Virus record (IMG/VR): IMGVR_UViG_3300031841_005801
Coordinates: 1-43,462 of that record
Length of the DNA stretch: 43,462 nucleotides
Origin: a virus
Direction: 5' to 3' (one strand)
Positions 2,205 to 10,853 of this stretch are shown one piece after another. Within the stretch, counting starts at the first letter, position 1, and the number at the start of each line of letters is the position of its first letter. The position numbers and the translations under genes were made by a program. The notes beneath the pieces were generated by a model. That model made no database searches. It worked only from the letters and a program-made list of their open reading frames with translations, and was not told the DNA's origin.

Positions 2205-5200
2205 ATGTCATCTATTATTGTCCCTAAGAAATTTGTTGGTTTGCACGCACATTGTGGAACAGGTAGTCCCTATGATGGTCTCGGGTATCCGAACCAGCAT
2301 ATTGATTTTGTCCTTTCCAATGATATGAATGCTTGGGCTTTGACCGACCATGGAAATGGAAACGGTCTTGCTCACGCTCATACGTACGCAAAGAAGCTAA
2401 AGAAGAAAGGCCAGGAGTACCGTCAAATCTACGGTGTCGAGTTTTACTTTGTACCTTCTCTCTCTGAGTGGCGCGCATCCTATGAAGCTCATCGCGAAGA
2501 AGTTCGTGCGGCAAGGTCTGAAAAGAAGGCAAAGGAATCTACCGATATCAACTCTGAGGATGAAGTATCCGGAGGTCTTGTCATTGAGAATGAGGATGAG
2601 ACTAAGAATGACTTCGAGAAGAATGATTGGAAAAGGCGATATCACCTTGTTGTTCTTGCAAAGAATCAAGTAGGCCTGCAGAACCTTTTTACACTTGTCA
2701 AGAAGTCTTACACGGATGGCTTCTACAGGTTTCCTAGAATTGACTACAACCTTCTCAAGATGCACGGTGAGGGACTTGTCGTAAGTACCGCCTGTATCGG
2801 CGGCTATCCCGCATCTCTAATTGCAAGAGGTGAGGCAACTGGTAAGTCTGACAGTGATATTCTTCTAGATCTAGAAAACATGTCAGACAGGTTTATTGAT
2901 GCCGTAGGTCGTGACAACTTTAACCTTGAGATTCAGTTTAACTCTCTTTCAATGCAGCATAAGACAAACAGGCATCTTATTGCTCTGCATGAAAAGACAG
3001 GTATTCCCATGGTTGCAACGGCTGATAGTCATTACTATAGTAGGAACATGTGGGAGGCTCGTGAACTGTATCGCAAGCTTGGTCGAATGGGTGCCAGAGG
3101 TGATGCTATGCCTAAGCTTCCGGCTTTTGAAGATTTGAAGTGTGAGCTCTATCCAAAGAATGCACAGCAAATGTGGGATGAGTACAAGCTTCATGTTCCT
3201 GACTATGATTTCTACAAGGGGAAGGACCAGCTGATTGCAGATGCAATTGAAAGGTCATATGACATTGCATGGGATCAGTGCGAGGATGTTTGGTTTGACG
3301 AGGAGGCAAAGCTTCCTCGGTTCGGAACGCCGACAGATTCTGCGTTCAACCAGCTTGCCCGCAGAGTCAAGGATGCTCTGGTGGAAGAAAACCTCCACAC
3401 AGATCCTGTGTATGTTGAGCGTGCTAAGATGGAGCTGGATGATATCAAGTATCTTGGCTTTGAAAACTACTTCTTGACTATGACAAAGGTCTTTGACCTT
3501 GCCTCTCAGAGTACAATTATTGGCCCGGGTCGTGGTTCAGGTGCAGGCTCTCTTGTCAATTACCTGCTGGGTATTACAACCACAGATCCAATTAAGTACG
3601 GTCTTCTGTGGGAGAGGTTCTTGCACAGGGCAAAGGCAGGCTGGCCGGATATCGATACTGATGCTGGTGACAGAGATGTGCTGATTGATGCTTCTCGCGA
3701 GCTATTTGGGGAAGAGGCTGTTGTTCCAGTTTCAAACTTTAACACGCTGAAGCTCAAGTCGCTTATCAAGGATGTTTCCAAGTTTTATGGAATTGACTTT
3801 GGCGAGGTAAATGCCATGACCAACACCCTTGAAAAGGATGTTATGCACAAGGCAATGGGTGACCATGAGGAAAGGTCAACCTACGTTCTCACCCACGAAG
3901 ATTGCATGAAATATTCTCAGAAGTATGCTGAGTTCATGGAACAGTACCCGAAGGTAAGTGAGCACGTTCAAAACTTGTTTATGGAGTCTCGATCAATCGG
4001 TCGCCATGCAGGCGGTGTTCTAATCTGTCCAGATCTTGAAAAATACATGCCAGTTATCAAGGTTCGCGGTGAGCTACAGACTCCCTGGTCAGAAGGTATG
4101 AACTTCAGGCATCTTGAGCCGAACGGCTTTCTTAAGTTTGACTTCCTTGGCTTGACAACGCTTAAAATGGTTGAGGACTGCGTTAGGCTTATTCTCAGAA
4201 AGGAAGGTAACCCAGCCCCTACTTTTGCTGACATTCAGAAGTTCTTTGATGAAAACATGAACTGTCGCTACAACACACTAGATGACCAGAAAGTGTGGGA
4301 ACATGTTTATCACGAGGGCCGGTTTGTCCAGGTGTTCCAGTTTACACAGCAGGGTGCACGAAACTTCTGCATGTCTGCCAAACCTAGAACTATTGAGGAG
4401 CTGGCAACCATTACTGCAATTTATCGTCCTGGTCCGCTCTCTGCTGGCGTCCACCGAAAGTATGTGAAGGCTAAGAAGTCCGTTGAGGATGGCAACCCTA
4501 TTGAATATGATCACCCTGTTATTGAGGAGATTCTAAGCGAAACTTACGGCTTCATCTCTTTCCAGGAGCAGTTCATGCTTTTGGCCCAGAAGCTGGCTAA
4601 CTTTGACAAGGGTGCTTCCGATAAGATGCGTAAAACTCTTGTCAAGAAGTCACTTGACTCAAATGCGGCAAAGGTCCAGGAAAGAGTTGACCTTCATAAG
4701 AAGTTTGTCAACGGTGCTGTTGAGATTTCAGGCATGGACCGAGGCAAAGCTGAAAAGCTCTATGAGACCATTGAATTCTTCTCGGGCTATGGCTTTAACA
4801 AGTCCCATGCTGTATCTTATGCAATTGACTCTTACTACTCAGCCTGGCTCCACACTTACTACGAGAAGGAGTGGCTAGCAACCTGTTTGCAAACCCAGAA
4901 CGGTTCAAACAAGTTTGGTAAGGTAATTTCTGAGATTAAGTCACTAGGCTATACTATTCTCCCGCCTGATATCAACGCCTCTTCAGATGTTTGGGTTTAC
5001 AGCGATGAGCGTGGTGGCTTTGTCCCTCCGCTGACTGCAATCAAGGGTGTTGGTGATGCTGCTGTTGCAGAAATCATGGAAAGGCGACCCTTCTCAAGTC
5101 TGGATGAGATGATGTTTACTGAGGATGGCAAGTGGCGCCCTTCTAAGATGAACAAGACCTGCTTTAACTCGCTATGCCTTGTTGAGGCCTTTGGAAGCCT

Positions 5201-5762
5201 GGATGAATTTAAGAACGGTAAGGTTCTAAACCACAGGCAGCTTCACAGTGTAATTATTGACAACTACGACCTGCTCAAGAAAGGCAGGCACGGAATGACA
5301 AAGACTGCCGTTAAGAAACTTCTAAAGGAACAGGAAGAGGTTCCGAACTTTATTGATGTCAAGCTTGCTGAGACTGAGGGTGCACCTGACTGGAATCGTG
5401 CAGAAAAGATTGGCAATTGCGTTGAGCTTATGGCCAGCGCTGATGAGACTCTTGTCTTCCCGCCCAGGATTATGGCGAAGATTGAGAAGGCAAACGTTCG
5501 GTCTGTAACTTCACTCTCAGGCAAGGAGAAGGATATTGTCTGGTTCTGCATCCAGTCTCTTGAAGAAAGGACCACTAAGAATGGCAAGGTTTTCTATCGC
5601 ATGAAGGTCATGGATAATAACTCTGAAAGCTGCTGGGTCCGCGTCTGGGGTAAGTTTAAGGAGGTCCCTGACCTATATACCATGTGGCTGGCTGAGGTAG
5701 CTTCTACTGAGTCCTGGGGTTGCTCTACATCTTCCTACAAGATGAAGAAGCTAGACGTTTAG
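2205..5762 (+). CDS. dnaE: DNA polymerase III alpha subunit-like (family C) polymerase
   Basis: 1185 residues and uninterrupted. The order of domains is that of bacterial DnaE. The N-terminal PHP domain has His14/His16 in GLHAHCG and TDHGN near 47-51. The palm has GPGRGSGAGS near 440 and the Asp482/Asp484 pair in WPDIDTD. The third catalytic Asp is near 646 in LKFDFLGL. The fingers contain YRPGPLSAG and SFQEQFM. A helix-hairpin-helix follows (AIKGVGDAAV), then an OB-fold-like C-terminus. It would be the phage replicative polymerase. Family C enzymes are uncommon in phages, which more often carry family A or B. No separate clamp loader, primase or exonuclease is visible in the window, so those are elsewhere or host-supplied. 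PHP metal ligands look largely kept, so it may proofread. Confidence 0.93.
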   Translation: MSSIIVPKKFVGLHAHCGTGSPYDGLGYPNQHIDFVLSNDMNAWALTDHGNGNGLAHAHTYAKKLKKKGQEYRQIYGVEFYFVPSLSEWRASYEAHREEVRAARSEKKAKESTDINSEDEVSGGLVIENEDETKNDFEKNDWKRRYHLVVLAKNQVGLQNLFTLVKKSYTDGFYRFPRIDYNLLKMHGEGLVVSTACIGGYPASLIARGEATGKSDSDILLDLENMSDRFIDAVGRDNFNLEIQFNSLSMQHKTNRHLIALHEKTGIPMVATADSHYYSRNMWEARELYRKLGRMGARGDAMPKLPAFEDLKCELYPKNAQQMWDEYKLHVPDYDFYKGKDQLIADAIERSYDIAWDQCEDVWFDEEAKLPRFGTPTDSAFNQLARRVKDALVEENLHTDPVYVERAKMELDDIKYLGFENYFLTMTKVFDLASQSTIIGPGRGSGAGSLVNYLLGITTTDPIKYGLLWERFLHRAKAGWPDIDTDAGDRDVLIDASRELFGEEAVVPVSNFNTLKLKSLIKDVSKFYGIDFGEVNAMTNTLEKDVMHKAMGDHEERSTYVLTHEDCMKYSQKYAEFMEQYPKVSEHVQNLFMESRSIGRHAGGVLICPDLEKYMPVIKVRGELQTPWSEGMNFRHLEPNGFLKFDFLGLTTLKMVEDCVRLILRKEGNPAPTFADIQKFFDENMNCRYNTLDDQKVWEHVYHEGRFVQVFQFTQQGARNFCMSAKPRTIEELATITAIYRPGPLSAGVHRKYVKAKKSVEDGNPIEYDHPVIEEILSETYGFISFQEQFMLLAQKLANFDKGASDKMRKTLVKKSLDSNAAKVQERVDLHKKFVNGAVEISGMDRGKAEKLYETIEFFSGYGFNKSHAVSYAIDSYYSAWLHTYYEKEWLATCLQTQNGSNKFGKVISEIKSLGYTILPPDINASSDVWVYSDERGGFVPPLTAIKGVGDAAVAEIMERRPFSSLDEMMFTEDGKWRPSKMNKTCFNSLCLVEAFGSLDEFKNGKVLNHRQLHSVIIDNYDLLKKGRHGMTKTAVKKLLKEQEEVPNFIDVKLAETEGAPDWNRAEKIGNCVELMASADETLVFPPRIMAKIEKANVRSVTSLSGKEKDIVWFCIQSLEERTTKNGKVFYRMKVMDNNSESCWVRVWGKFKEVPDLYTMWLAEVASTESWGCSTSSYKMKKLDV

Positions 5763-5793: not shown

Positions 5794-6561
5794 ATGAAGA
5801 TAACAGAATCAAGAATTAGAAGAATTATAAGAGAAGAGCTTTCTAGAATTATCGAATCCAGAGAGCCTTCGATAAACATTAGCCAGACAGACAAGCATGT
5901 CAACATAGACGTGACTTCCTACCCAGAAAAATGGGAAGAGGAGCTGGGGTATGTAGATCCAAGGACAGAGACTACGTCTTTAGATATCTCTACAGCAACG
6001 GACGCAGATGGAGAGCTAAGAACTGTCCATCTAGGAAAATTACAAGCAATCAAAGCACTACCACTCCCGGACCATGGCGTTCATAAACCTGACCCAGAAG
6101 ATATATGGACGCAGAAAATAGTCTATTATGTCCCAGTAGGCGGAAACTCCTACTGGCTTCCGGGAGCCTCTGTTGCCAAGGATGATAAAGGCAGAAATAT
6201 ACCTGTAATAGTTTACGGAAGTATCTACGACCCACATCTGGGAGAGATGTACAAGTTCGAGAAGATCGACGCCAATGTTGATTACGAGTTTAGCGCGAGA
6301 TTTCCAGGTCTAGAGGCATCTCACAACTGGAGCAACCCGCCTGACATCCCCCTAGACGATCACGAACCGCCTGCGGTTGAATATAAAAGCCCGTTTACTG
6401 CAGACTGGTGTGACAGGAATCCAGGCAAGTGTCCACCTGATCCTGACTACAGGGTTAGCTGGGATGATACCGATCTTGACGACTTCGAGGGTGAGACGTT
6501 TGAGCCGCAGGACAGGCCATCACGATTTACTATGCCGTGGTCTGAAAAGCCAGCAGAGTAG
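5794..6561 (+). CDS. unknown protein with MKITESRIRRIIREEL leader
   Basis: 255 residues of no recognised family. The first 16 residues form a strongly basic/acidic amphipathic helix with [LI]-x-E sites. Almost the same peptide closes the DUF192 protein at 40041-40454. The body is rich in Pro, Asp and aromatic residues (PVGGNSYWLPG, ASHNWSNPPDIP, DWCDRNPGKCPPDPD) and looks like beta-structured virion or extracellular material. It follows the polymerase by 31 bases. A packaged or structural protein is plausible but unproven. Confidence 0.55.
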   Translation: MKITESRIRRIIREELSRIIESREPSINISQTDKHVNIDVTSYPEKWEEELGYVDPRTETTSLDISTATDADGELRTVHLGKLQAIKALPLPDHGVHKPDPEDIWTQKIVYYVPVGGNSYWLPGASVAKDDKGRNIPVIVYGSIYDPHLGEMYKFEKIDANVDYEFSARFPGLEASHNWSNPPDIPLDDHEPPAVEYKSPFTADWCDRNPGKCPPDPDYRVSWDDTDLDDFEGETFEPQDRPSRFTMPWSEKPAE

Positions 6562-6597: not shown

Positions 6598-6614
6598 CAT
6601 GTTATAATAACATG
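6598..6614. promoter_or_regulatory. perfect inverted repeat over -10-like element and start codon
   Basis: CATGTTAT-A-ATAACATG is a perfect 8-bp inverted repeat around a central A. It contains TATAAT and overlaps the ATG of the next gene (6612). The inner core GTTATAATAAC occurs again at 31413-31423, also in a larger inverted repeat before a gene. It could be an operator or a symmetric phage promoter. Confidence 0.45.
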
Positions 6615-7520
6615 ATGCTAACGTTTCCAACTAAAAATCTTTTTGTTGAAGGTCCGGACTGCTCGGGTAAAACAACACTTGTCAGTAACATTCACAAGCT
6701 TACGGGTTACAAGTGGCATATTCATGATAGATCTCAGGTCTCTAGGAGAATATTTCAGCAGATGTATGATAGGAACTTACCCTATCTAGGCGATGATTTT
6801 CATAGTGAAGTCTTTAATCTAAACAATAGATTTGTTTTTCTGCTGCCTCCATTTCAAATAGTTCGAGAAAGGTTTGAAAAGCGTGGTGACGATATTCATA
6901 AAAACGTTTTTGAAATCAAGCGTGTTTATGATGCATTTGAAAAAGAGTTTGGTCTACTCTCAAGGCTTCCAAATGTTCTGCCTTACTTCGGTGTCGCAAC
7001 TCCAAAAGCTGTCGAAGCTCTTTGTGCAACTCTGGAGCTGACAGAAAGGTCGATGCTAAGAGAGGTATCTGATCAGGTCTTTTCTACTGTGGAGCATTGT
7101 GAAGGGGAATGCTTTCCTTTACAGTTTACTCTTTACGATGATGGAGAGTTTGAAGAGGCTAGCAAGGATTCTATGACCTACGAGCCCGAGAAGGAGTATT
7201 ATGAAAAGATATACAATAGATTTCACGAGAAGATTGACAATGAGCTTCTGGGAAAAAATGAATACAACAGGCTGGAATCACCTTCTTCTCGCAGATTTGT
7301 TTACTCCGACGATAGTTGTATATCATTTATTCAATTATCGATAAGAAAGAGGGTTCTTGACTTCCACGTCGTAATAAGATCCTCGGATGTTAAAAATATC
7401 TTTCCCCATGATTTAAAATTTCTATATTATTTGGCATCTACCTGCTACGAAAAATTTCAAGGTGAAGCTTATGGTGCAAGGTTAAGATTTAACTTGAACT
7501 CTGCCCACATAATTAGTTAA
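6612..7520 (+). CDS. fusion of dNMP/thymidylate kinase-like and thymidylate synthase/dCMP hydroxymethylase-like domains
   Basis: 302 residues. Residues 9-130 are a P-loop kinase (Walker A GPDCSGKTT at 14-22) of the thymidylate/dNMP kinase type. Residues 225-302 match the core of the thymidylate synthase fold. Cys236 is followed by Gln at +5, Arg at +20 (RSSD at 256-259), an acidic residue at +31 (FPHDL, Asp267), and His299 in SAHII. This reproduces the C146/Q151/R166/D169/N177/H207 spacing of E. coli ThyA. Asp replaces Asn177, as in phage dCMP hydroxymethylases, pointing to cytosine rather than uracil. The usual TS N-terminal region and C-terminal tail are missing and the Tyr209 equivalent is Ile, so activity is uncertain. 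It could make or phosphorylate modified dCMP. The start codon lies inside an inverted repeat. Confidence 0.75.
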   Translation: MMLTFPTKNLFVEGPDCSGKTTLVSNIHKLTGYKWHIHDRSQVSRRIFQQMYDRNLPYLGDDFHSEVFNLNNRFVFLLPPFQIVRERFEKRGDDIHKNVFEIKRVYDAFEKEFGLLSRLPNVLPYFGVATPKAVEALCATLELTERSMLREVSDQVFSTVEHCEGECFPLQFTLYDDGEFEEASKDSMTYEPEKEYYEKIYNRFHEKIDNELLGKNEYNRLESPSSRRFVYSDDSCISFIQLSIRKRVLDFHVVIRSSDVKNIFPHDLKFLYYLASTCYEKFQGEAYGARLRFNLNSAHIIS

Positions 7521-7548: not shown

Positions 7549-8559
7549 ATGAGAGCTTTAGTTACGGGAGGTTGCGGGTTTATTGGCTCAAACCTAGTAA
7601 AAAGATTAGCTAGCGAAGGCTGGACAGTTGATGTTGTTGACAATCTTTCGGGAGGCACCGAAGAAGCAATTTCAGATCTAAAGATTCGAAGAATTCCAAT
7701 GGCTTCTCTGCTTCCGCAGTTTTATTACAATTTAGATAAATTGGGACAAAAGAGAGATCAAAAAGAAGTTCTTTTTATCCCTAGCGATTTTTCAGATTTG
7801 GGTGTTCTAGCAGCAATTAGAGATAAGAGGTATGATATAGTTTTTCACCAGGCAGCTGTTCCAAGAGTTAGTTACTCTGTTGAAAATCCGGCTGAGACTA
7901 CTTTTGAAAACATTACAAAAACCGTCTCTCTTTTCGAAGCTTGCCACGATAGCGTTAAGAGAGTTGTCTGGGCTTCATCCTCCTCTGTGTACGGAGGGGC
8001 TGAATTAATGCCAACTCCTGAATCTGAAAGAGGTAAAGTTTTACCGGCTTCTCCTTATGCCTGGCAAAAGTTTGCTATCGAAGATTATGCAAAGATGGCA
8101 TACAACCTCTATAACCTGGACATAGTATGCCTAAGATACTTTAATGTTTTCGGTCCAGGGCAACTTGGTGATTCTCCCTATTCAACTGCAGTCTCTGCAT
8201 GGTGCCATGCAACAAAGAACGCAACCCCGCTCAGGAGTGACGGAGACGGAGAGCAGTCAAGAGATCTGTGCTATGTTGACAATGTTGTAGATGCAAATAT
8301 TCTTGCTGCAAATTCTAGTCTCACTTTTAAAGGCAAGTGCTATAATGTAGCTTGCGGAGACAGGATTTCAAACAATCAAATTCTTGACTACTTCTTGAAA
8401 AACTATGATGTGACGATTAAGCATGCACCGGAGAGACCAGGCGATGTAAAGCACACACAGGCTGATATATCTTTGATCTCAAGCGAGCTTGGCTACAAGC
8501 CAAAAGTTAGATTCTGGGATGGTCTGGAAAGAACACTCGAGTGGTGGAAATTAAAATGA
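7549..8559 (+). CDS. NAD-dependent sugar-nucleotide epimerase/dehydratase
   Basis: 336 residues of the extended short-chain dehydrogenase family. TGGCGFIGS (6-14) is the NAD-binding glycine motif. VDNLSGG is the usual Asp for the adenosine ribose. WASSSSVYGG and YAWQK supply the catalytic Ser and Tyr/Lys. The C-terminal half fits UDP-glucose 4-epimerase-type enzymes (SRDLCYVDNVVDANI, RPGDVKHTQADIS). It would interconvert UDP- or GDP-sugars, for glycan or DNA/virion glycosylation or host envelope change. It overlaps the cupin gene by an ATGA, so the two are likely one unit. Exact substrate unknown. Confidence 0.85.
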   Translation: MRALVTGGCGFIGSNLVKRLASEGWTVDVVDNLSGGTEEAISDLKIRRIPMASLLPQFYYNLDKLGQKRDQKEVLFIPSDFSDLGVLAAIRDKRYDIVFHQAAVPRVSYSVENPAETTFENITKTVSLFEACHDSVKRVVWASSSSVYGGAELMPTPESERGKVLPASPYAWQKFAIEDYAKMAYNLYNLDIVCLRYFNVFGPGQLGDSPYSTAVSAWCHATKNATPLRSDGDGEQSRDLCYVDNVVDANILAANSSLTFKGKCYNVACGDRISNNQILDYFLKNYDVTIKHAPERPGDVKHTQADISLISSELGYKPKVRFWDGLERTLEWWKLK

Positions 8560-8987
8560 AAAATAGAGAGAACGATGAATATAAAACTGCGTGGGTTTCA
8601 AAAGGATCTTCAGTTGTTGAGAAACCCTGGGGGTATGAGACAAGATGGTCTGGATTTTCCGGTGTTCACGGAAAGACATTGTTCATAAAAGAAGGGTGCA
8701 GGACTAGCTTAAAGTACAATATGCGAAAAACAGAAGTTCTAATGCTGAGATCTGGTGAGGCGGAAGTTACATTTGGAAATGAAAATACACTAGCCAATCC
8801 ACAGCTGTACAGTTACAAGGTTCAAAAGATGGAAGTGGGCGATTGTCTACTTGTTCAGTCCGGATGTCCGTACAGGATAAGAGCAATAACTAATTGTGAA
8901 ATCTTTGAAATTGGTGACAACGCTGCTGATACACCTATTAGGATTGATGATGATTACGGGAGAGTGAAGAATGACAAGAATGCCTGA
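8556..8987 (+). CDS. cupin, mannose-6-phosphate isomerase type II-like
   Basis: 143 residues starting at the ATG that overlaps the epimerase stop. Motifs of the phosphomannose isomerase/GMP cupin family are present: VEKPWGYETRW near the start, the beta-barrel segment LKYNMRKTEVLMLRSGEAEV, and VGDCLLVQSGCPYRI. The typical second-His metal motif (HRAE-like H...H...E) is partly changed: the family's QxHxHRxE is replaced by LKYNMRKTE. Metal binding is therefore doubtful and it may be a sugar-binding or altered isomerase. It pairs with the upstream epimerase in sugar-nucleotide metabolism. Confidence 0.65.
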   Translation: MKNRENDEYKTAWVSKGSSVVEKPWGYETRWSGFSGVHGKTLFIKEGCRTSLKYNMRKTEVLMLRSGEAEVTFGNENTLANPQLYSYKVQKMEVGDCLLVQSGCPYRIRAITNCEIFEIGDNAADTPIRIDDDYGRVKNDKNA

Positions 8988-9540
8988 GTTCATAATTTTT
9001 ACTGGGCCGATGTTTGGTGCGAAAACTAGCAGGCTTCTAGCTGCAATTGATAGATTTTCGTATCAAAATAGAAAAGTCATATGCTTTAAGCCAAGAATCG
9101 ATCACAGATATTCAAAGTCAAGCATTACAACACACAACGGACATTCTGTTGAGGCAGTAAATGTGAACACTGGTGATGAAATTGTTAATATTGTTAATGA
9201 CAACAAGAACTTTTTTGATGTCGTTGCTGTAGACGAGGCTTTCATGATAGAAGGGTGCGCAGAAGCACTAATCAATCTCTTTAGAAATGGAAAGACTATT
9301 GTCGTTTCATCTCTACAGCTATCAGCAAGCGGGAACGTATTTGAAGAAGTTAGAGACATGATGCCCTGGGCTACTAAGATAGAGGTTTGTCCTGCTGTTT
9401 GTACAGTAAGCGGTAGAGATGCGTACTACACGCATAAGAAAGTTAACGATCTTGCAGAAATAACAGTCGGGGGATCAGAGCTCTATGAGCCCAGGTGCTG
9501 GGAGTTTCACTCTTATATGAACCAGACGCAGAAATTTTGA
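8971..9540 (+). CDS. tdk: thymidine kinase
   Basis: 189 residues matching bacterial/phage type II thymidine kinase, which makes dTMP from thymidine and ATP. GPMFGAKTSRL is the Walker A motif; the family norm is GPMFSGKT. VVAVDEAFM is the DEAQF-type Walker B. The zinc-ribbon part reads AVCTVSGRDAYYT and EPRCWEFH. The usual CxxC/CxxC is degraded: the second Cys of the first pair is Ser, and the last knuckle is CxxH. The lasso Tyr near the C-terminus (YEPRC) remains. It overlaps the cupin gene by 17 bases and has a strong ribosome site (GGGAGAG). Confidence 0.85.
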   Translation: MTRMPEFIIFTGPMFGAKTSRLLAAIDRFSYQNRKVICFKPRIDHRYSKSSITTHNGHSVEAVNVNTGDEIVNIVNDNKNFFDVVAVDEAFMIEGCAEALINLFRNGKTIVVSSLQLSASGNVFEEVRDMMPWATKIEVCPAVCTVSGRDAYYTHKKVNDLAEITVGGSELYEPRCWEFHSYMNQTQKF

Positions 9541-9547
9541 GATACAA

Positions 9548-10462
9548 ATGTTAGAACCTACTAGTGTAAATTGCGTTATCTACCACGCTGACTGTACTGA
9601 TGGATTTGGTGCAGCATACTCAGCGTGGAAGCAGCTTGGAAATAGATCTGAGTATCATGCATGCAAGCACGGAACACAACCACCTGACATCAAAGGGAAA
9701 AATGTCGTTATTCTAGATTTTTCTTTCGATAATGCAACTACAAAGAGAATGATTGAAGAAGCCAACTCACTTCTAGTCATAGATCACCACAAATCGGCCA
9801 TGGTTGAACTTCACGATATTTCAAATACAAAGTTTGATATGCACAAGAGCGGTGCGATGCTAGCGTGGGAATTTTTTCATCCAGGCAAAGACGCACCGAA
9901 ATTTATTCAATACATTCAAGATAGAGACTTGTGGAAGTGGGAGCTTCCATATTCAAAGGAATTTGCTGCAGCGTTCGATATGGTTCCGTTCGAATTTGAA
10001 GAGTTTGAAAAGTTTGAAGATGATTCTGTCTTTGATGATGCAGTCAAGCGAGGCTCTTACATTTTAGCGTACTCAAAGACAGTTGTTAAGAAAGTTTGTG
10101 ATAAGGCACAGCTTAGAAAAATGGACGGTAAAGATGTAATGGTCGTCAATGCTTCTCACTGGATGTCCGAGATTGGTGCACGCCTTGCTCCTGACTGTGA
10201 TTTTGCCATGATTTGGTATTGGGATCACGAGTCAAAAGAAACTAAAGTGAGCCTAAGGGCGTTTCATGACACTGTTGACGTTTCTGAAATTGCAAAAAAA
10301 TATGGCGGAGGCGGACACAAAAAAGCTTCGGGTTTCCAGCTTCCTAAGAACAAGCATGTTGAAGATTTGTTCGACAAGCCTCGCGCAAGGAGAAGTCGAA
10401 AGAAGAAAGCTATCGCTAGCCAGCCAGAGAGTGATAAGAAAAATGAGACCGACGTGGGATGA
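9548..10462 (+). CDS. DHH/DHHA1 family phosphoesterase
   Basis: 304 residues. The N-terminal DHH domain has YHADCTDGFGAA, ILDFSFDN and VIDHHKS (the name-giving DHH). The C-terminal DHHA1 domain ends with KKYGGGGHKKASGF. This is the layout of NrnA/NrnB-type nano-RNases and cyclic-dinucleotide phosphodiesterases. It is followed by a charged tail of about 40 residues with RRSRKKK. In a phage it could recycle short oligonucleotides from host nucleic acid breakdown or remove cyclic dinucleotide signals used in host defence. Sequence alone does not separate these roles. Confidence 0.82.
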   Translation: MLEPTSVNCVIYHADCTDGFGAAYSAWKQLGNRSEYHACKHGTQPPDIKGKNVVILDFSFDNATTKRMIEEANSLLVIDHHKSAMVELHDISNTKFDMHKSGAMLAWEFFHPGKDAPKFIQYIQDRDLWKWELPYSKEFAAAFDMVPFEFEEFEKFEDDSVFDDAVKRGSYILAYSKTVVKKVCDKAQLRKMDGKDVMVVNASHWMSEIGARLAPDCDFAMIWYWDHESKETKVSLRAFHDTVDVSEIAKKYGGGGHKKASGFQLPKNKHVEDLFDKPRARRSRKKKAIASQPESDKKNETDVG

Positions 10463-10853
10463 AATATGGATGGACTTTGCACAGTCCATCTCAAAAAGAT
10501 CTTATGACCCTAGATATCAAGTTGGGGCTGTAATTGTTACAGACGACAATACACAAGTCCTCTCTGTCGGCTACAATGGTAACTATTCAGGCGGTCCTAA
10601 CGAAGTAGAGTCTGAAATTCCAGGTGAATCTGGCTTGTTACATGCTGAAATTAACGCTCTGCTTAAAATGGATTATAACAACCCGAAAAAGAAAAAACTA
10701 TATTTGACTCTCTCTCCCTGCAGGATGTGCGCCAAGGCAATAGTAAACTCCGGGATTGGTGAGGTCATGTATGCTGAAAAATACAGAGATTCTTCGGGCT
10801 TGGAAATTTTAAATGATGCAGGAATAAACCACAAGTTAATTCCTACCAAGTAG
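10443..10853 (+). CDS. deoxycytidylate (dCMP) deaminase
   Basis: 136 residues from the ATG at 10443, chosen because upstream residues in this frame overlap the DHH gene and do not fit the family. LLHAEINALL is the zinc/catalytic HAE motif and SPCRMC is the PCxxC motif. QVGAVIV and SVGYNG are also typical of the dCMP deaminase/ComEB family. It makes dUMP for ThyX, which lies at the left end of this block. It overlaps the DHH gene by 20 bases. Confidence 0.88.
   Translation: MRPTWDEIWMDFAQSISKRSYDPRYQVGAVIVTDDNTQVLSVGYNGNYSGGPNEVESEIPGESGLLHAEINALLKMDYNNPKKKKLYLTLSPCRMCAKAIVNSGIGEVMYAEKYRDSSGLEILNDAGINHKLIPTK

Follow-up and report, generated by a model that had tools for sequence, protein, structure and literature searches.

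A conserved phage fusion of a compact kinase and a minimal thymidylate synthase-like domain with a putative dCMP site

The fusion gene and its surroundings

The window—the whole stretch of DNA analysed here, a 43-kb viral contig—carries on its plus strand, at 6612–7520, an open reading frame of 302 amino acids in which two domains are joined: a compact P-loop NMP-kinase-like domain (residues 1–145; 6612–7046) and a minimal thymidylate synthase (TS)-fold domain (residues 146–302; 7047–7517). A reading of the sequence alone, without database searches, had already described a kinase joined to a TS-like core, and the arrangement proves to be a conserved fusion with 75 distinct fused homologues in IMG/VR, gathered by three scans of that collection and a search of whole records. 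All 140 open frames that match the TS-like profile (E ≤ 1e-10) also match the kinase profile. Fused copies were absent from the INPHARED phages, PLSDB plasmids searched with the TS-like domain gave no match, and GTDB cellular genomes returned kinase-like matches only, with no fusion. Pfam finds no TS in the window protein or in 20 aligned TS-like domains, with the result that standard annotation does not see the family; Polysacc_deac_3, DUF5759, and other weak Pfam matches in the TS-like domains were set aside as single-member chance matches. At L235 and L240 (G063 65019–65922) the fusion gene is divided between two overlapping frames, perhaps through a frameshift or an assembly error.

The genes of the window are arranged in the following order: the C-terminal part of a divergent ThyX paralogue, here called ThyX*, which is cut by the window's left end (3–605; PF02511 at 21–311, E = 5.7e-15); a nucleoside 2-deoxyribosyltransferase (1701–2141; PF05014, E = 1.7e-16); a C-family (DnaE-like) DNA polymerase (2205–5762); a hypothetical gene; the fusion; an NAD-dependent nucleotide-sugar epimerase (7549–8559; PF01370, 4e-46; PHROG 540); a cupin; a thymidine kinase (8971–9540; PF00265, 8.4e-34); a DHH gene; and a dCMP deaminase (10446–10853; PF00383, 6.9e-21; PHROG 174, 3.1e-46), the start of which was placed by comparison with locus L001. 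All of the genes in this list that have coordinates lie on the plus strand. The deoxyribosyltransferase, the polymerase, and the epimerase are conserved neighbours, and in the flanks covered, 64 of the 78 fusion loci have an epimerase of the same cluster. Relatives of the window carry two all-alpha pyrophosphatase-like genes upstream, near ThyX*; the first is small and has a weak, sub-threshold match (E = 7.7e-4) to PF08761, the family of the RB69 gp56 dCTPase, and the second is fused to a 5'-nucleotidase domain. Taken as a set, the dCTPase/dUTPase-like genes, the dCMP deaminase, and the nucleotide-sugar epimerase fit cytosine modification. No DNA glycosyltransferase was identified, and TAGT was not found in the 20 records searched.

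Several further features of these genomes can be recorded here. An Fpg/Nei-type glycosylase (L154 7608–8411) lies near ThyX* in 44 of 128 loci of relatives, and an HhH-GPD DNA glycosylase (L193 5588–6013) in 38 of the 128; Nei/Nth-type enzymes can excise oxidised pyrimidines, and these recurring glycosylases may bear on the modified base. A MKITESRIRRIIREEL-like N-terminal leader is common to otherwise unrelated proteins (window 5794–6561; L001 70, 1090, and 4172) and is absent from six control loci—perhaps it is a targeting or packaging signal. The window also encodes a phage GroEL (26503–28101; PHROG 5725, E = 7.5e-148).

A compact kinase and a reduced TS fold

The N-terminal domain, previously read as a dNMP-kinase-like P-loop domain, appears to be just that, and intact. 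It matches the PHROG 761 thymidylate kinases (E = 2.5e-9), and the motifs expected of thymidylate-kinase-like NMP kinases in that group are all present: a Walker A motif, EGPDCSGK, at 13–20 (EGxDxSGK as the family consensus), the DR motif within DRS at 39–41, and the arginines of a LID-like R87..R91-G-D93. The closest solved relative by profile is YorR of the SPBc2 prophage (E = 2.7e-10), which also comes first when the model of the window protein is compared in VIA-align 2 (Z 13.2, 2.7 Å, 139 residues). Conservation was counted over the 75 distinct fused proteins, some columns having 73 ungapped residues: G19, K20, D39, R40, R87, G92, and D93 are found in 75/75, and R91 in 74/75. The kinase is probably active, since its Walker A motif, D39-R40, and R87...R91-G92-D93 hardly vary. 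Its closest relative in an isolate is the kinase of the Pelagibacter phages HTVC119P and HTVC200P; compared with the HTVC119P kinase, that of the window is shorter by about 21 residues in the stretch that runs from the P-loop helix to the DR motif.

Profile search and structure prediction were both applied to the C-terminal domain, and a TS fold is predicted with confidence. AlphaFold2 models of the whole protein (42 sequences; pLDDT 95.7, pTM 0.91) and of the domain alone (pLDDT 95.6, pTM 0.91) agree with a TS alpha/beta fold. In Foldseek the first matches are, in order, AfhB (1.9e-6, 9.2e-6), T4 dCMP hydroxymethylase (1.2e-5), and then ThyA. Among the best 50 VIA-align 2 matches, the domain-only model reaches Z 10.3–11.4 over 137–144 residues against TS-family entries, with MilA (11.4), AfhB (11.3), and ThyA (11.2) in effect tied; T4 gp42, the dCMP hydroxymethylase, is absent from these best 50 matches, which has no bearing on the fold of gp42.

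A C-terminal domain profile built from 20 members finds T4 dCMP hydroxymethylase as its best PDB match (E = 1.7e-5), followed by mutants of that enzyme, while ThyA does not appear up to E = 10. AfhB falls at E 0.04, in the same range as chance rows, so its likeness to the window domain rests on fold and on profile–profile scores; neurotoxin chains and SLC53, at E 0.03–0.6, were rejected as chance matches in which only a helical stretch is aligned. The domain also matches the PHROG 160 thymidylate synthases (E = 0.0032). By hhalign, the window family scores 42.6 against the T4 group, 40.4 against the AfhB group, 22.5 against MilA-like proteins (a score that rests on two sequences), and 11.4 against thyA (one sequence).

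What remains of the TS fold is a predicted nucleotide-binding core with several segments cut away. The sequence-only reading held that the N-terminal half of TS is missing, and this was right only in part: a helix and strand (149–176) and a long helix (191–213) are present N-terminally, and the losses are the middle segment with Glu58/Tyr94, a portion of the loop that leads to the catalytic cysteine, and everything past the active-site histidine. The strand at 170–176 and the SRR motif are separated by about 50 residues, a shorter distance than in gp42 or AfhB, and the stretch that holds Glu60, Trp82, Ser94, and Tyr96 has no counterpart when aligned with the window family. The catalytic Glu60 has no aligned residue, its segment being deleted; E193 (74/75) and E211 (70/75) are conserved candidates for its place. 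E166 and Y196 are likewise found in 74/75 each, and E166, E193, and Y196 could be local replacements of the missing residues. The chain ends three residues past His299, with similar ends in homologues, and there is no C-terminal tail of the ThyA type that closes over folate.

A probable dCMP site and the choice between chemistries

The residues expected to hold and activate the nucleotide have been kept. Over the fused homologues the hallmarks of the TS superfamily—the cysteine nucleophile, the phosphate arginines, and the active-site histidine—are nearly invariant. S226-R227-R228 (7287–7295; R227 75/75, R228 73/75) corresponds to Arg123/124 of T4 gp42, which bind phosphate and are supplied by the partner subunit (PMC6400193). 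Cys236 (7317–7319; 74/75) aligns with the gp42 cysteine and is equivalent to the catalytic Cys146/148, the nucleophile of gp42 being Cys148 (PMC6400193). R256-S257 (7377–7382; 72/73 ungapped each) are the R166-S167 equivalents, and His299 (7506–7508; 72/73 ungapped), in an SAH motif in 60/75, is the equivalent of His207. The ThyA hallmark Asn177 is replaced by Asp267 (7410–7412) in 73/73 ungapped sequences, at the position of gp42 Asp179 and in the column that is Asn in the D179N mutants 6l18 and 6a9a. All of these positions are on the plus strand.

The first reading had placed Cys, Gln+5, Arg+20, and Asp+31 at C236, Q241, R256, and D267. Every placement is correct, and the recognition of Asp267 at the Asn177 position of ThyA is borne out by the alignment with gp42; the spacing is not a matter of chance for C236, R256, and D267, but Q241 is not conserved and is His in 58/75. 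The conserved SRR motif and H299 had been overlooked.

In T4 gp42, Asp179 protonates N3 of dCMP, and the D179N change cuts kcat up to about 3600-fold (PMC6400193). A metagenome association study took the Asn-to-Asp change at position 177 as the dCMP-specificity switch, and among the domains it ranked, TS had the strongest association with modified cytosine in the DNA of phages; that MetaGPA paper shows the association of Asp177 and does not mention the kinase, the fusion, or ThyX (PMC8670742). The conserved residues, the roles of their gp42 counterparts, and the Asp177 association together make a dCMP site in the TS-like domain well supported, and the substrate is likely to be dCMP rather than dUMP.

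Two phage enzymes and one CMP hydroxymethylase, all with solved structures, stand close to the window domain. The window domain resembles T4 gp42 (PDB 1b49, 6a9a) in its TS fold, its cysteine nucleophile, the SRR and RS grip on phosphate, the aspartate at 177/179, and a short C-terminus; unlike gp42, it is joined to a kinase, shows no identifiable Glu60, Ser94, Tyr96, or Arg177, has 7 rather than 23 residues from RR to Cys (23 also in RB69 ORF048c), and stops right past the histidine. AfhB (9iqc, 9iqu) is a protein of phage HY126, almost identical to RB69 ORF048c; its PDB titles call it a dCMP hydroxylase and a riboflavin-dependent monooxygenase, and the Mosigvirus enzyme of this type has been called a 5-hydroxy-dCMP synthase (PMC13390438). 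With AfhB the family shares the TS fold, Asp at 177, SAH[VI] around the histidine, the absence of Gly at the TS LG position, and Asn169 as the commonest residue (39/75, with Asp in 24/75 and in the window itself) at a pterin-contacting position; in RB69 a PHROG 761 kinase is also encoded near the AfhB-type gene. In contrast to the window family, AfhB is a separate protein in which the E..FW segment and the YG motif are retained. As it also has equivalents of Glu58/60 and Tyr94/96, AfhB in its turn falls short of an exact model. The third enzyme, MilA (PDB 5b6e), is similar in fold (Z 12.4 with the whole-protein model), but MilA and a MilA-like protein of Pelagibacter phages are full-length TS domains encoded by separate genes, with Gly173 and Asp169 kept.

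On this evidence the protein is unlikely to be a genuine dCMP hydroxymethylase that depends on methylene-THF and is joined to its kinase, with E193 or E211 in place of Glu60. gp42 is the best PDB profile match and narrowly leads in hhalign score, and it binds THF although it too is without the C-terminal tail (PMC6400193). The signature of hydroxymethylation is Ser94/Tyr96 together with an acid three residues before the cysteine (PMC6400193); the window has this acid (D233), as do 42/75 homologues, and 70/75 have an acid at −3 or −2. However, the −3 acid is not conserved as such, the segment with Ser94/Tyr96 and Glu60 has no visible equivalent, the gp42 folate-tail residue Arg177 is matched by Arg in only 5/75, the TS glycine is Thr in 41/75, and Asn is commoner than Asp at position 169. 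The sequence-only reading of a dCMP hydroxymethylase is therefore supported for the aspartate and a likely dCMP site but not for hydroxymethylation, as equivalents of Glu60, Ser94/Tyr96, and Arg177 are not identifiable.

Neither hhalign nor structural Z separates a gp42-like from an AfhB-like enzyme, and AfhB, a hydroxylase that also carries the aspartate, is as close as gp42 by score and fold; Asp177 is thus best read as a mark of dCMP binding, not of hydroxymethylation. In the alignments, AfhB-type hydroxylation and hydroxymethylation appear indistinguishable, the family being without residues that both enzymes keep.

The losses could also mean that the TS-like domain is non-catalytic, a dCMP-binding domain that regulates the kinase or channels substrate to it, a reading we hold to be rather improbable. 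Consistent with it, the folate half of the pocket and the general acid/base residues are gone, and there are relatives in which the kinase is kept beside a TS-like part that is degenerate or missing: homologue L051 (4992–5882) has Cys→Asn, Arg256→Lys, and His→Tyr with an intact kinase, and contig G052 (L150 15265–15846) has a natural truncation, the kinase part and about 40 residues only, directly before a thymidine kinase. The TS-like part therefore seems dispensable in some phages. Against this, Cys236 is present in 74/75, which would be needless in a pure binding domain, and the unfused TS-like protein of Geobacillus phage GR1 keeps the Cys, the Arg-Ser, and the Asp.

Gene pairs of comparable content recur in other phages. 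Separate, adjoining genes for a kinase and a D177-type TS are found in Pelagibacter phages HTVC119P and HTVC200P, where the two genes overlap, in Dhakavirus UGJNEcP4, and in Enterococcus phage 9183, which gives the fusion the look of a recurring kinase/TS pair joined into one gene. In view of the Asp177 tie (PMC8670742) and these pairs, cytosine modification by the phages that carry the fusion is plausible. In HTVC119P (L005 6431–7279) and HTVC200P (L006 6455–7273) the gene is annotated as a thymidylate synthase; as the product is MilA-like with Asp at 177, it is probably a dCMP/CMP-modifying enzyme.

ThyX* and a proposed reaction

ThyX* is set apart from ThyX by its motif: RHRxGSFxAQCTGDR replaces RHRxxSxNExSxR, with RHR kept. 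Some form of ThyX occurs in 40 of 43 fusion contigs, and 20 of the 43 carry two copies, one canonical and one divergent (~330 aa). ThyX* is also seen in L104, L107, L112, and others, with canonical ThyX beside it in about half of the contigs. The association holds in the reverse direction as well: in a search of 37 more ThyX* records over their whole length, 22 matched the profile of the fusion, 19 of them with the full-length protein; the other three are a contig-edge piece, a kinase-only copy, and a split frame. ThyX* records without the fusion are of 52 kb or less, except for one of 134 kb with ThyX* at the contig end.

Within the phage collection, ThyX* occurs in a single isolate, Geobacillus phage GR1 (OK896991), whose host is G. 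stearothermophilus ATCC 10149; unlike the window, GR1 has the two halves of the fusion in two genes. Its locus (L137 14001–15424) encodes a TS-like protein (UDY80710, PHROG 35203) with the same minimal domain as the window (hhalign E = 4e-9), and this gene follows that of ThyX* with a 1-base overlap; the same compact kinase (UDY80706; hhalign E = 2e-12) is encoded upstream. Immediately upstream of ThyX*, GR1 carries a gene of the nitroreductase family. The 1-base overlap and the co-occurrence suggest a functional link between ThyX* and the TS-like domain; the co-occurrence may also reflect only the common descent of one phage group, the gene set being inherited together.

ThyX bears as well on a possible role of the TS-like domain in ordinary thymidylate synthesis, whether as an enzyme with dUMP/dTMP as its substrate or as an accessory subunit. 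Canonical ThyA (PF00303) was not found in the 43 fusion contigs, which leaves ThyX as the only dTMP-forming enzyme found in them, and the window has its thymidine kinase gene nearby. Nevertheless, the invariant aspartate disfavours dUMP (PMC6400193), and the second, canonical ThyX beside the divergent one in 20/43 contigs indicates that dTMP is already supplied there; we regard either role as very unlikely.

Our tentative preference, held at somewhat less than even confidence, is for a bifunctional enzyme that modifies dCMP at C5 and phosphorylates the product without using the standard folate pocket. Among the points in its favour is the near invariance of the dNMP-binding residues and the cysteine in 75 fused proteins. 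With roles carried over from T4 gp42, the TS-fold domain would hold dCMP, its phosphate gripped by R227, R228, and R256; Asp267 would protonate cytosine N3, and Cys236 would add to C6, making C5 reactive. C5 would then gain a hydroxyl or hydroxymethyl group. With no standard folate half in the pocket, the donor or oxidant would have to bind in another way or be delivered by a partner protein, and for that part the best candidate is ThyX*, a divergent flavoprotein. The N-terminal kinase could then convert the modified dCMP to its diphosphate, on the way to the phage polymerase. A more specific version—a two-part enzyme in which the TS half-enzyme activates dCMP covalently, ThyX* delivers the oxygen or one-carbon unit, and the fused kinase phosphorylates—is a speculative idea with a small chance of being correct; if true, two unrelated thymidylate synthase families would be combined in one reaction.

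In the known pyrimidine-modifying members of the TS superfamily, the half of the fold that faces the cofactor is retained. A widespread family reduced to the nucleotide half would test the minimum fold for C5 chemistry, and with GR1, an isolate in which the parts are split, the family can be tested in a cultured phage. If the enzyme is active, cytosine modification and phosphorylation would take place on one chain, and a phage group with modified DNA that has gone unrecognised would be indicated. The fusion suggests, without proving, that these uncultivated phages have an unusual way of producing DNA with modified cytosine.
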